This document shows, piece by piece, positions 53,727-59,097 of a DNA stretch of 59,097 bases (the first letter of the stretch is position 1; each line of letters starts with the position of its first letter). The position numbers and the translations under genes were made by a program. The stretch comes from an uncultured Pelagibacteraceae bacterium (GTDB taxonomy: Bacteria > Pseudomonadota > Alphaproteobacteria > Pelagibacterales > Pelagibacteraceae), in assembly GCA_902518395.1 (NCBI GenBank), contig CABYFX010000002.1:1-59097 (forward strand). The letters run 5' to 3'. Below the pieces are notes generated by a model, which did no database searches, was not told the origin of the DNA, and worked only from the letters and a program-made list of their open reading frames with translations.

Positions 53727-54872
53727 CTAATTCTTTTTAGTAGGAATTTCTTCCTCTTTCTTTTGAGCTTCAAGCTTTTCTTCACTTAAGGGATTACCCT
53801 CAATCTTCTTTGAAATAACGCCAGCTTTCTCTCTGATAGCCATTTCAATTTCAGCAGCAGCTTTTGGATTTTGTTCAAGGTAAAGTTTAGCATTCTCTCT
53901 ACCTTGACCAATTTTTTCACCTTTATAGGCGTACCAAGCTCCAGATTTCTCTACAATCTCAGCTTTAGCACCAAGGTCGATTAGTTCCCCTACTTTACTA
54001 ATTCCTTTTCCATACATTAAGTCAAACTCAACAACTTTAAATGGTGGTGCAACTTTGTTTTTAACAACTTTTACTCTTGTTGTATTTCCAACAATTTGCT
54101 CTTTATCTTTTATTGCTCCAATTCTTCTAATATCCATTCTTACAGAAGAATAGAATTTTAAAGAATTACCTCCAGATGTTGTCTCAGGACTTCCAAACAT
54201 TACTCCAATCTTCATTCTAATTTGGTTTATAAATATAACCATTGTATTAGTTCTTGAAATTGATCCTGTTAATTTTCTAAGAGCTTGTGACATTAGTCTT
54301 GCTTGAAGACCAACATGGTGATCTCCCATATCTCCTTCAATTTCTGCTCTTGGAGTTAATGCTGCAACTGAGTCTACTACTAAAACTGACATTGAGCCAG
54401 ATTTGATTAAAGTATCAGTTATTTCTAATGCCTGTTCACCAGTATCTGGCTGTGAAATAAGCAACTCCTCAGTATTAACACCTAACTTCTTGGCATAGAC
54501 TGGGTCCAATGCATGTTCTGCATCCACAAATCCACAAATCCCACCTGCTTTTTGTGCTTCAGCAACAACTTGTAAAGCTAATGTAGTCTTACCAGATGAC
54601 TCTGGTCCGTAAATTTCAACAATTCTACCTTTTGGTAATCCGCCTATTCCAAGTGCTAAATCCAAACTTAAAGATCCAGTAGAAATGGACTCTATATCCA
54701 TCGCTTTTTGCTCTCCTAGCTTCATCACAGAGCCTTTTCCAAAGCTATCTGTTATCTGGCTGATTGCAGCATCTAGTGCTTTATTTTTTTCTTTATCTTC
54801 CAATTCTTTATCTTTTGTGGTTTTCACCACTTTTAGGTTATTTTTAGTCATTTTTTGCCTCGTTTTTTTCAT
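53727..54872 (-). CDS. recA: Recombinase RecA
   Basis: [63 protein letters not shown]. Confidence 0.98.
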
Positions 54873-54901
54873 TTATTAACATTCGAATCATGAAATTAAA
54901 T

Positions 54902-54916
54902 GTACACATTTTGTTC
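54902..54916. promoter_or_regulatory. Candidate LexA box upstream of recA (GTAC-N7-GTTC)
   Basis: GTACACATTTTGTTC; 12/15 identical to reverse complement of the umuD box (GTTCTTATTTTGTTC). Confidence 0.65.
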
Positions 54917-54959
54917 TCATTGGCAATATTTTTTTAAAATTAGGGCTAGAAGTCCCTAT

Positions 54960-56258
54960 TTATCTGAGTTTTAGGTATTCGCTATTTAATAAACCTGCAG
55001 ACTTCAACAGTCTATATTGCGCTAATAAGTAATTTCTTTCAACTTCGGCAAGATTTATTTTAGCATTTATTAGATTTGATCTTGATTGAAGAACATCAAA
55101 TGTAGATCTATTCAAACCACTCTCATACTCAAAGGTAATTCCCTCATTTGCAATCTCTGCAGCCTTAACTTGTGATTGCACAGCCCTTAAAAGACTTTTT
55201 GAAGACTCTAAAGTAGACCAAGCTGCGGTAACTCCTTGTGTAATATTTCTAAAAGCATTCTCAAGTAATAATTTTTTCATTCCTTTTACTTGAAGGTTTT
55301 TATTTATATTAGATTTATTCTTTCCTCCAAATTGAAATGGCCAACTTACTGTTGCTTGTAGTACATCTTTTTCCCTTTCATCATAAGTTGCGCTTAAATC
55401 ATCTGTATATGATCTTTCAAGTGAAAGTTTTGCTGTTGGAGATAAATCTGATCTTGCAATTTGCACATCTAATTCAGACTGTCCATATTCTATTTCAGCA
55501 ATAATAAGATCAGGACTTTTTTGTTCAGATATTTTTTTTGCATCAACTAAACTTGAGGGTAGTGGAACTTCAGAGTTATAAATTTTTTTTAATTTTTCAT
55601 TGCTGTTGATTGGTCCAATTATATTTTCATAAGCTAATTTACTCGTGATAATACTATTTTGGGCTCCAATATAACCTGCTTGTGCCCCTGATAAAGAAGA
55701 TTGAGATTGTGCTAAGTCAGTTGCAGTTATTTGAGCTCTAGATAGTCTTGCATTATCTATCTCGAATTGTCTTTGAAGTAGGTTAACATTTTCTTCATTA
55801 ATATTTAGTTTTTCGTAAGCAAGAATTAAACCTGTATAAGCCTCAATTGCTTTCATAAAAACATCTTGTTCTTTTTTAATAAGTTGTGCTTCTGATAAAT
55901 TTAATCCTAATTTACTTTTTTCATATTTTGTGCCACGTTCACTACCATCTAAAAGTGTTTGTTCTAACTTTACAGAAGATGTCATTGTATTTGTATTAGT
56001 TATTGAAGCATCAGTACCATCTTGATTTGTAAGTTTATTTGTATCTTCAAAACTTTTAGTACCCGAGAGAGTTAAAGTTGGAAAAAAATCACTTTTAGAA
56101 ATATTTAAGACTTCTTTTTGAACTTCTAAGTTTTTTCGCTCAGCTTGTAGTTCTAAATTATTTTGAAAAGTAGTTTTTAATGCCTCACTTAAGGTTGCTG
56201 CTGCTACTGACGTTACAGAAAGTAATAAAAGCGAGGTAATGAGAAAAATATTTTTCAT
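54960..56258 (-). CDS. tolC: TolC-family outer membrane efflux protein
   Basis: Signal peptide; coiled-coil OEP repeats; NAKINLAEVERNYLLAQYRLLKSAGLL. Confidence 0.92.
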   Translation of the reverse strand: MKNIFLITSLLLLSVTSVAAATLSEALKTTFQNNLELQAERKNLEVQKEVLNISKSDFFPTLTLSGTKSFEDTNKLTNQDGTDASITNTNTMTSSVKLEQTLLDGSERGTKYEKSKLGLNLSEAQLIKKEQDVFMKAIEAYTGLILAYEKLNINEENVNLLQRQFEIDNARLSRAQITATDLAQSQSSLSGAQAGYIGAQNSIITSKLAYENIIGPINSNEKLKKIYNSEVPLPSSLVDAKKISEQKSPDLIIAEIEYGQSELDVQIARSDLSPTAKLSLERSYTDDLSATYDEREKDVLQATVSWPFQFGGKNKSNINKNLQVKGMKKLLLENAFRNITQGVTAAWSTLESSKSLLRAVQSQVKAAEIANEGITFEYESGLNRSTFDVLQSRSNLINAKINLAEVERNYLLAQYRLLKSAGLLNSEYLKLR

Positions 56259-57181
56259 TTATTATATTTTATGGATTTAATTTGATGATTACTATTTAAA
56301 TTTAATACTATTGATGAATATTTTGGAGCAAATTTAAACATATTTTGTGTGACCCTTTGGTAAGTCTGCATAAATGTTAATACCTCATTTTTACTCATTA
56401 CCTTACTATTTGCTTTGTTTTTGGAGTTTAATTTTAATAACGCCTCCTGTTTAAGCCTCCAGCTCTGCAATAATTTAAAATTACCTGCTTTTAAAAATAA
56501 CAAACAGTCTAATTTAGAAAATAATTTTTTGTATTTAGTTTGCAACTGAACATTTACATATTTTCTCCATCTTATATTTTTATCCTCTGTTCTTTCCAGA
56601 GAATTAATTGGTTTTTTTAAGGTTATATTTTTTTCTGCTCTAGCCCCCACACACCATCCTTCAAAGATTATGACATCTGGTACCTCTTTAACTAGATACC
56701 AAGACTTTCTTTTTAATCTATCATCTATTGCCTTATTAAACTTAGGAAGTCTCTGTTGATTGAATTGTTTTCCCTTTGTTTTTTTTAGAAGATCAAAGAT
56801 AAAATTTATGTCGTGGGTGCCTGGAACACCTCTAGTCATTAATAAAGGATGAATTTTTTTAGACAATTTTATTCTATCTTTTCGGGTTTTGTATAAATCA
56901 TCAATTGAGATTTTAAAAACATTTAGCTTAAAATATTTTGTTAGAATGATTTTTAAAATAGAGCTAATCGTTGTTTTTCCAGTACCTTGGCCTCCTGCTA
57001 AGCCTATTAAGTAAGGTTTAGATTTATTTGTTCTATTATTGATCCAGAAACTAATTGGAATTAGAAAAGATTTAATCATCTTTTCTTTATTTTCAAATTT
57101 TTCTTTATAAGTTTCCTGAGATCTAATAAATTTAAAGCAATCTTTACTAACTTTTCTGTAACACTCAGTAATTGATTGCAT
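56255..57181 (-). CDS. D-glycerate 3-kinase-like P-loop kinase
   Basis: LIGLAGGQGTGKTTISSIL, ISIDDLYKTRKDR, HPLLMTRGVPGTHD, VIIFEGWCVGA. Confidence 0.85.
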   Translation of the reverse strand: MQSITECYRKVSKDCFKFIRSQETYKEKFENKEKMIKSFLIPISFWINNRTNKSKPYLIGLAGGQGTGKTTISSILKIILTKYFKLNVFKISIDDLYKTRKDRIKLSKKIHPLLMTRGVPGTHDINFIFDLLKKTKGKQFNQQRLPKFNKAIDDRLKRKSWYLVKEVPDVIIFEGWCVGARAEKNITLKKPINSLERTEDKNIRWRKYVNVQLQTKYKKLFSKLDCLLFLKAGNFKLLQSWRLKQEALLKLNSKNKANSKVMSKNEVLTFMQTYQRVTQNMFKFAPKYSSIVLNLNSNHQIKSIKYNK

Positions 57182-57189
57182 AAAAAAAT

Positions 57190-57558
57190 TTATTGTTTTT
57201 GATCTAAGGGATGGTTTTTGCCATCATTTACTGGTACATCTTCAATTTCAAATGGTTCCACACCTTCAATACAAGCAATATTTACACCAAATATTTTTGG
57301 ATTGCTTCTAGGTCTATTATGAGTGTGAATTCCACAAATTGAGCAAAAGTAATGTTTGGCAGTATTAGTATAAAACTGATAAAGTGATAACTTATCTTCC
57401 CCTTTAGTAAGTTTAAAATCATCAGGACCAAGTACTCCAATAATGTAACCTTTTTTTTTGCATATTGAACAATTACAACGCATAATCTTTTCAATACCAC
57501 CCAATGGTATCTTAACCTCTGCTTCTATTGCACCACAATGACATGATAATTTTTTCAT
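57190..57558 (-). CDS. GFA family protein (glutathione-dependent formaldehyde-activating-like)
   Basis: CHCGAIEAEV, RCNCSICKKKG, HYFCSICGIHTHNRPRSNP. Confidence 0.88.
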   Translation of the reverse strand: MKKLSCHCGAIEAEVKIPLGGIEKIMRCNCSICKKKGYIIGVLGPDDFKLTKGEDKLSLYQFYTNTAKHYFCSICGIHTHNRPRSNPKIFGVNIACIEGVEPFEIEDVPVNDGKNHPLDQKQ

Positions 57559-57577
57559 ATTTTAATCTCCTAAAAAT

Positions 57578-58060
57578 TTATCTTTTATTATCTTTTAAAT
57601 AATTTTTATATCTTTCGTAACTTTCTTTTGGCCAAGTATTTTTTAAATCATACATTTTATCAAAACAATTTGCATCATCAGTAAGTTTTAGCCATGGATC
57701 TTTATCTTTGATAAATATATGCGCTTCAGGAGGAAAGTTTTCTGAATTATCTAAAGTTTTAGTTCTAACTGTTGATCTACCAACTGCCGTAGCATAATCT
57801 GTGTAAATATAAGTACCACATTTGCTACAAAAATAAGCTCTCGATGTAGCCCCACTGCCTGTTTTAAGTTCAGTTGACGAAATATTGCCCTCTATAATCA
57901 AAGTATTGTCTAGAACGCTTGTATTAATTACATATGAAGACCCAGTTATAATTTTACAATCTTTACAATGACAAGCTTGGGTGAATAAAGGTTTTTCTGT
58001 AATTGTATATTTAACTTGCCCGCATATACATCCGCCGGTTAAGTTTTTATTTTTTTCCAT
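57578..58060 (-). CDS. GFA family protein
   Basis: GGCICGQVKYTI, ACHCKDCKIITGS, RAYFCSKCGTYIYTD. Confidence 0.9.
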   Translation of the reverse strand: MEKNKNLTGGCICGQVKYTITEKPLFTQACHCKDCKIITGSSYVINTSVLDNTLIIEGNISSTELKTGSGATSRAYFCSKCGTYIYTDYATAVGRSTVRTKTLDNSENFPPEAHIFIKDKDPWLKLTDDANCFDKMYDLKNTWPKESYERYKNYLKDNKR

Positions 58061-58089
58061 TTATTATTTTAAACTATTTATGGTTAAAG

Positions 58090-58150
58090 TTATCCACATG
58101 TATACAACATGTGGTTTTGATGTTCACGTTTTGATTCACTTTTGATTCGG
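58090..58150. promoter_or_regulatory. Compound cis element: DnaA-box match, 8-bp palindrome, three TTTTGAT(T)C-type direct repeats
   Basis: TTATCCACA at 58090-58098; CCACATGT-ataca-ACATGTGG at 58094-58114; repeats beginning 58115, 58129, 58140. Confidence 0.5.
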
Positions 58151-58174
58151 TTACAGACTCAAAATACAACCTGA

Positions 58175-58203
58175 TTGACACTATTGAATAACTTAGATAT
58201 TAA
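58175..58203 (+). promoter_or_regulatory. Candidate sigma-70-type promoter of umuDC
   Basis: TTGACA (58175-58180) - 17 bp - TATTAA (58198-58203). Confidence 0.55.
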
Positions 58204-58206
58204 TTA

Positions 58207-58221
58207 GAACAAAATAAGAAC
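58207..58221. promoter_or_regulatory. LexA box, alphaproteobacterial type (GAAC-N7-GAAC = GTTC-N7-GTTC on the other strand)
   Basis: GAACAAAATAAGAAC immediately upstream of the umuD ATG at 58226. Confidence 0.8.
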
Positions 58222-58225
58222 ATTT

Positions 58226-58621
58226 ATGAAGCTAACTATACCTTACTATTTACATAAAGCTGGTGCGGGTTTTCCATCCCCTGCTACGGATTATATTGAG
58301 GAAGACATCGATTTAAATGTTCATTTAATCAAAAATGTTCCAGCAACCTTCATTATAAGAGTTCAAGGGAAATCAATGGTGGATGTTGGAATTAATGATG
58401 GGGATCTATTAGTTGTTGATAAAAGTTTAACACCAAAAAACTTCTCAACAGTTATTGCAAATGTTCATGACGAACTAGTTGTTAAAAGTTTGGTTCAAGA
58501 AAGAGATAAAAAATTTTTAACATCAGGTTCTAAAGAATTTACAGATCGAATTTTAATTAACGAAGATGAAGATGTATTTATTTGGGGGGTTGTAACTTAT
58601 GTCATCCATTCAGTATACTAA
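58226..58621 (+). CDS. umuD: UmuD-like S24 peptidase, error-prone polymerase V accessory subunit
   Basis: [40 protein letters not shown] (catalytic Ser), VVKSL (catalytic Lys), followed by umuC. Confidence 0.94.
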
Positions 58622-59097
58622 AAAAATAGCACTTATTGATTGTAACTCTTTTTATGTTTCTTGTGAAAGATTATTCAATCCTAAAATAAGAAAAAAACCT
58701 GTTGTAGTTTTATCTAACAATGATGGTTGTATAATTTCAAGATCAACCGAAGCAAAAGCTTTAGGTATTAAAATGGGAGAACCTTACTTTAAAGCAAAAG
58801 ATATTATTGTTAAAAATAAAGTTGAAGTTTTTTCATCTAATTATTCTTTATATGGAGATTTATCTAGAAGAGTGATGCGAACGCTAAAAAGATTTAATTC
58901 TGCCATTGAAGTTTATTCTATCGATGAAGCATTTTTAGATTTATCGAATTTTCCAGATAACGAAGTTGAAAAAGTTGGAAAAGAAATTAGAGAAACAGTT
59001 TTAAAGTGGACAGGTATTCCAACTAGTATTGGTATTGCTAAAACAAAAACTTTGAGTAAAGTTGCGAATCATATTGCAAAGAAAAAAAAATCAGGTG
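58599..59097 (+). CDS. umuC: UmuC, Y-family DNA polymerase subunit (5' part; truncated by window end)
   Basis: ATG at 58599 overlaps umuD by 23 bp: [64 protein letters not shown]...[11 protein letters not shown]. Confidence 0.94.

Follow-up and report, generated by a model that had tools for sequence, protein, structure and literature searches.

The 59,097-nt stretch of DNA analysed here (the window; contig C2 of assembly G000, which is 1.0 Mb in size and 74% complete) carries recA and the beginning of umuDC. The recA gene lies on the minus strand at 53727..54872 (TIGR02012, 558 bits; Pfam RecA), with a start that may instead be at 54850, while umuD (58226..58621, plus strand) encodes a 131-aa protein with an S24 peptidase domain that matches NF007621 (141.5 bits, cut-off 110) and has a conserved AG/F cleavage-site region when aligned to E. 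coli UmuD (8gmt_B). The end of umuD is overlapped by umuC (58599..59097, plus strand; Pfam IMS, 144.6 bits; best NCBIfam model UmuC PRK03609), a gene that the contig end interrupts. An earlier note on this DNA, made from the letters and translations, had named recA, umuD and the start of umuC, and the Pfam and NCBIfam profile matches confirm all three names. Divergent from umuD lies a SAR11_0636 RNA (Rfam RF01827; 58082..58171, minus strand), found with a covariance model score of 107.1 bits against a gathering threshold of 67. The contig breaks inside umuC at 59097, and recA, umuD and the SAR11_0636 RNA are jointly absent or truncated in near-complete relatives, including G064, G080, G107 and G110; together, these observations suggest that the region beside umuC is assembly-hostile or variable.

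Predicted operators before recA and umuDC

The pattern GTWCN7GTTC was searched as a strict match, both in the window and genome-wide, so that weaker operators could escape. Only two matches occur in the window, GTACACATTTTGTTC (54902-54916) and GTTCTTATTTTGTTC (58207-58221, minus strand), at the coordinates and on the strands of the LexA-type boxes proposed in the earlier note; the two are identical at 12 of 15 bases, as it had counted. The predicted recA operator (54902..54916, minus strand), identified by pattern match and conservation, reads GAACAAAATGTGTAC towards the gene. It fills the 16-bp spacer between a predicted -35 TTGCCA (54921..54926, minus strand) and a predicted -10 TACATT (54899..54904, minus strand), both assigned from sequence and conservation. 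The TTG of the -35 is nearly invariant across the order and lies 10 bp before the box. One half-site of the recA box is GTAC instead of a GTTC-type half, and TACATT starts inside it; this overlap with the -10 would apparently explain why GTAC, and not GAAC, is kept at recA.

The predicted umuD operator (58207..58221, plus strand) reads GAACAAAATAAGAAC towards umuD. A putative -35 TTGACA (58175..58180, plus strand) is followed after 17 bp by a putative -10 TATTAA (58198..58203, plus strand), and the box begins 4 bp past the latter. The earlier placement of the box over the expected transcription start of a TTGACA-N17-TATTAA promoter thus agrees with the positions found.

Two further features were seen near the recA operator. 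A GANTC site (GATTCG/GAGTCG) at 54880-54895, ~17-20 bp past the operator, is conserved in family f1 and is not evident in most of family f2. In the second family (L240-L248), an extra GAAC-N7-GAAC box, for example GAACATTAATTGAAC, lies ~66 bp upstream of the recA operator, and possibly serves a divergent gene or forms a double operator.

The number of matches is uninformative. Two in the window compare with 1.09 expected, a count of at least two was reached in 27 of 100 shuffles, and the motif was not enriched over the reversed control in any genome tested, counts being equal to or below those of the control. Raw enrichment was therefore dropped as evidence, and the argument rests only on position and conservation. 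As to position, given two matches, the chance that one falls in each 150-bp promoter (recA and umuD) is ~1e-5. The genome-wide scan that the earlier note had proposed returned 11 matches in G000: one at recA, one at umuD, two at lexA and seven within genes, so that all four matches outside genes are at the recA, umuD and lexA promoters. With the background rate taken from the seven intragenic matches, the probability of finding the pattern at the three named promoters is ~1e-13 (a rough Poisson figure).

Conservation was measured as majority-base frequency in 50 recA and 50 umuD loci, 30 from the same genus and 20 from outside it, the second family included, for a span of ten genera and two families. 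Rows were anchored with regular expressions that already fix part of the box, and this cost no locus. Both boxes were present in every locus fetched (50/50 each), the recA box being 99% conserved (flanks, 60-68%) and the umuD box 98% (flanks, ~59%). Of the 117 genomes of the order, 88 carry a single exact copy of the 15-mer GAACAAAATGTGTAC, against 0.56 occurrences expected over all 117 together and none in the reversed control; wherever recA was also mapped, the copy stands just upstream of it. The unremarkable counts in the window and in whole genomes are what would be expected if A+T-rich DNA had simply produced this loose 15-bp pattern by chance. Nevertheless, the confinement of all matches outside genes in G000 to SOS promoters, the invariance of the boxes in ten genera despite diverged flanks and the recurrence of the single-copy recA 15-mer leave this explanation with a negligible probability, and on these comparisons we regard it as already refuted by the conservation data.

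LexA and its predicted autoregulation

The earlier note had made its reading depend on a lexA gene in the genome. A full LexA with a winged-helix domain is encoded in G000 on another contig (G000:C28:11594-12274; TIGR00498, 169.5 bits, cut-off 110.95; Pfam LexA_DNA_bind above cut-off), with two boxes directly upstream of the gene. The protein can be aligned to solved LexA proteins and appears to retain the features that go with self-cleavage, namely the GKIAAGTPVEA segment with the Ala-Gly site, the GDSM serine and the lysine region. Its closest relatives among named genomes are in Candidatus Pelagibacter ubique and in Pelagibacteraceae genomes assembled from single cells and metagenomes, which places G000 in SAR11. 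A search of the order (117 genomes) gave, by hand count, a full-length LexA in 71 of the 75 genomes that are at least 90% complete, the remainder being fragmented assemblies; the automatic count of 75/75 includes cross-hits to UmuD.

The predicted operators of the lexA promoter are GTTCTATAAAAGTTC and GTACTTAATTTGTTC. Upstream of the gene, GAACTTTTATAGAAC is found at -37 and GTACTTAATTTGTTC at -16, the first box sitting in the promoter spacer and the second over the gene start, where it ends one base before the ATG. As at recA, one half-site of the second box is GTAC. The two-box promoter is present in 107 of 109 loci of the genus, the other two (L113 and L114) ending at a contig edge, and many relatives (e.g. 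L037) have a ladder-like series of four half-sites, one every 11 bp. In the second family, the first box alone remains.

The direct repeat GTTC-N7-GTTC is the motif reported for alphaproteobacterial LexA (PMC8565304). The system described here shares with the alphaproteobacterial regulon (PMC8565304; Caulobacter, PMC12700426) the tetramer direct repeat with 7-bp spacing, the targets recA, lexA and an error-prone polymerase, and the LexA family TIGR00498. It differs in having very few strict-motif targets (recA, lexA, umuDC and nrdA), and in the GTAC half-site of the recA box and of the second lexA box. A different dimeric regulator might bind the same boxes, for instance UmuD itself, which shares the S24 fold and has a relative that acts as a repressor in Acinetobacter, which lacks LexA (UmuDAb; PMC11332147 and PMC3978071). 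We consider this very improbable: at only 131 aa, UmuD has no room for a DNA-binding domain, whereas a full winged-helix LexA is present, its own promoter carries the box in duplicate, as autoregulation demands, and the motif is the one reported for LexA. The boxes at recA and umuDC are thus almost certainly operators, of the direct-repeat type found in alphaproteobacteria, for the LexA that this genome encodes, and comparison between genomes makes predicted LexA operators at recA, umuDC and lexA well supported.

The positions of the operators relative to the predicted -35 and -10 elements are compatible with blocking of RNA polymerase at recA, umuD and lexA. In the undamaged cell, a LexA dimer would occupy the boxes and prevent access of the polymerase, between the -35 and -10 at recA and over the -10 and start at umuDC; at lexA, the two boxes would cover both spacer and start, giving autoregulation. 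Upon damage or phage infection, single-stranded DNA would load RecA and provoke self-cleavage of LexA, with derepression of recA, lexA and umuDC, which encodes DNA polymerase V; in those species that allow it to be examined, nrdA (ribonucleotide reductase) would presumably be derepressed as well. The data support an ordinary LexA-type SOS circuit, which the earlier note had correctly spotted. Its claim that the boxes define a candidate SOS regulon holds, although the site count alone proves nothing, and its membership of recA and umuD is right but incomplete, since lexA and very probably nrdA also belong.

The divergent SAR11_0636 RNA

SAR11_0636 was described in 2009 by Meyer et al. as a candidate separately transcribed RNA (PMC2704228). 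The element at 58082-58171 belongs to that family and lies between umuD (SAR11_0635 in PMC2704228) and another gene; the 2009 paper makes no mention of a LexA box in the promoter region that umuD and the RNA share. Of the 117 genomes of the order, 59 contain a match to RF01827, and every one of these belongs to family f1. Relative to the 5' end of the RNA, the umuD box occupies positions of about -50 to -36, and TTGTTC, in the distal half of the box, is a possible -35 of the RNA. The umuD box might accordingly serve mainly the divergent transcript, making SAR11_0636 an SOS-controlled small RNA. In line with this, the RNA 5' end in genera g1, g2 and g4 is found 29-50 bp downstream of the box, and in many g1 species TTGTTC as a -35 would stand 18 bp from a TACAAT-like -10. 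However, in g3, g5 and g6 the RNA is found elsewhere and without a box, and umuD in g3, g5 and all of the second family has the box but no adjoining RNA. The box therefore follows umuD and not the RNA, and a primary role for the RNA is unlikely. The notion of SAR11_0636 as an inherently SOS-controlled RNA is weakened by these boxless copies away from umuD. The link between box and RNA looks positional, and shared control within this genus is possible.

The RNA sequence itself is conserved over 50 variants, including three GANTC sites, GTGAACA and TGTGGATAA. The GANTC sites are ~11-12 bp apart and their N varies between relatives. Practically no common fold was obtained for the 50 distinct copies (-0.5 kcal/mol; RNAalifold on a sequence-based alignment), and rather than a structured RNA SAR11_0636 may be an element that acts as DNA, or an RNA under cell-cycle control. 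A candidate GANTC-type (N6_N4) methyltransferase is encoded at G000:C15:17684-18340. We also considered a replication origin, given the three GANTC sites and the DnaA-box-like TGTGGATAA, and rejected it for G001 by cumulative GC skew: in sampled positions the minimum lies at ~120-180 kb, the maximum at ~740-780 kb and the element itself at 984 kb. In genus g5 (L282-L293, g5/g6), there are two SAR11_0636 copies, one of them on the recA strand and ~2.7 kb upstream of that gene; as umuD has moved away and one copy is still near recA, the element has kept its place near recA.

nrdA and the probable extent of the regulon

In the complete relatives G003 and G015, essentially all matches outside genes fall at recA, umuD, lexA or nrdA. 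No further strict-motif members emerged: the matches examined in G003 and G015, and all but four in the complete relative G026, were either intragenic or at these four promoters, the exceptions being one match within a short N-terminal frame in G015 (L322) and one within a 136-aa frame in G026 (L336). The additional site, orthologous in G003, G015 and G026, is flanked by nrdA (ribonucleoside-diphosphate reductase alpha) and a phosphomannomutase gene. GTTC-N7-GTTC precedes nrdA in 50 of 50 genomes from six genera, with half-sites 100% conserved and a spacer that differs between genera; in the genus, the box is ~105 bp before nrdA, just upstream of a TTGATT/TATTAA-like promoter. Its complement, GAACATTTATAGAAC, is identical to the first lexA box at 14 of 15 positions. 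The nrdA gene is absent from the incomplete G000 assembly; in the very close relative G056 (LexA 99% identical), both nrdA and the box are present (L399). In the second family, the B12-dependent nrdJ replaces nrdA and no box was found at nrdJ in nine loci, so that LexA control of nrdJ was rejected (0/9).

The main reason for caution comes from Vibrio cholerae, where a LexA-like box at nrdA failed to bind LexA (PMC5963079). That box, unlike the SAR11 nrdA box, was not a match conserved across genera. Both in V. cholerae and in E. coli, nrdAB is induced by damage but lies outside the LexA regulon (PMC5963079), and this LexA-independent induction, together with NrdR-like palindromes (ACAACATATAGTTGT) in the same SAR11 promoter, lends some plausibility to the view that the nrdA site belongs to an nrd control element, of NrdR or another regulator, and resembles a LexA box by coincidence. 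We hold this to be a real but rather doubtful alternative, since the box is separate from the palindromes, its half-sites are exact in all 50 genomes while the spacer varies by genus, it nearly duplicates the first lexA box and it is missing from nrdJ, the replacement of nrdA in the other family. On these sequence comparisons, nrdA very probably belongs to the LexA regulon. The broader proposal, that SOS in Pelagibacteraceae comprises four operons (recA, lexA, umuDC and nrdA) by which LexA ties both polymerase V and the supply of dNTPs directly to damage, is one that we favour with some reserve. A search of the open-access literature found neither nrdA as a LexA target in alphaproteobacteria nor a paper describing SAR11 LexA operators or the nrdA link.

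The retention of SOS in a minimal genome, as put forward in the earlier note, is supported but not new; an inducible SAR11 SOS gene set is already known from two studies (PMC12753301, PMC2864753). In the cultured relative Candidatus Pelagibacter HTCC1062, recA, lexA, umuD and umuC rise together during infection by phage HTVC027P (PMC12753301), and lexA, recA and mucA co-cluster in late iron stress (PMC2864753). The genes are the same as here (recA, lexA, umuD/mucA and umuC), the triggers there being phage or iron limitation and not a DNA-damaging agent; the available parts of both papers report expression and do not mention operators. In the phage experiment, nrdA rose 3.1-8.9 fold and nrdB 2.5-5.8 fold, which that paper explains as supply for phage replication and not as SOS control (PMC12753301). 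The SOS operators described here would account for the joint induction that has been reported under phage infection and iron stress.

The regulon outlined by these boxes would rank among the smallest LexA regulons for which the motif is clear, in a group, SAR11, that is among the ocean's most abundant cells and has few regulators. It leads to the direct prediction that ribonucleotide reductase is under LexA control. If this is true, a phage that triggers the SOS response would raise the ribonucleotide reductase of its host for its own replication.
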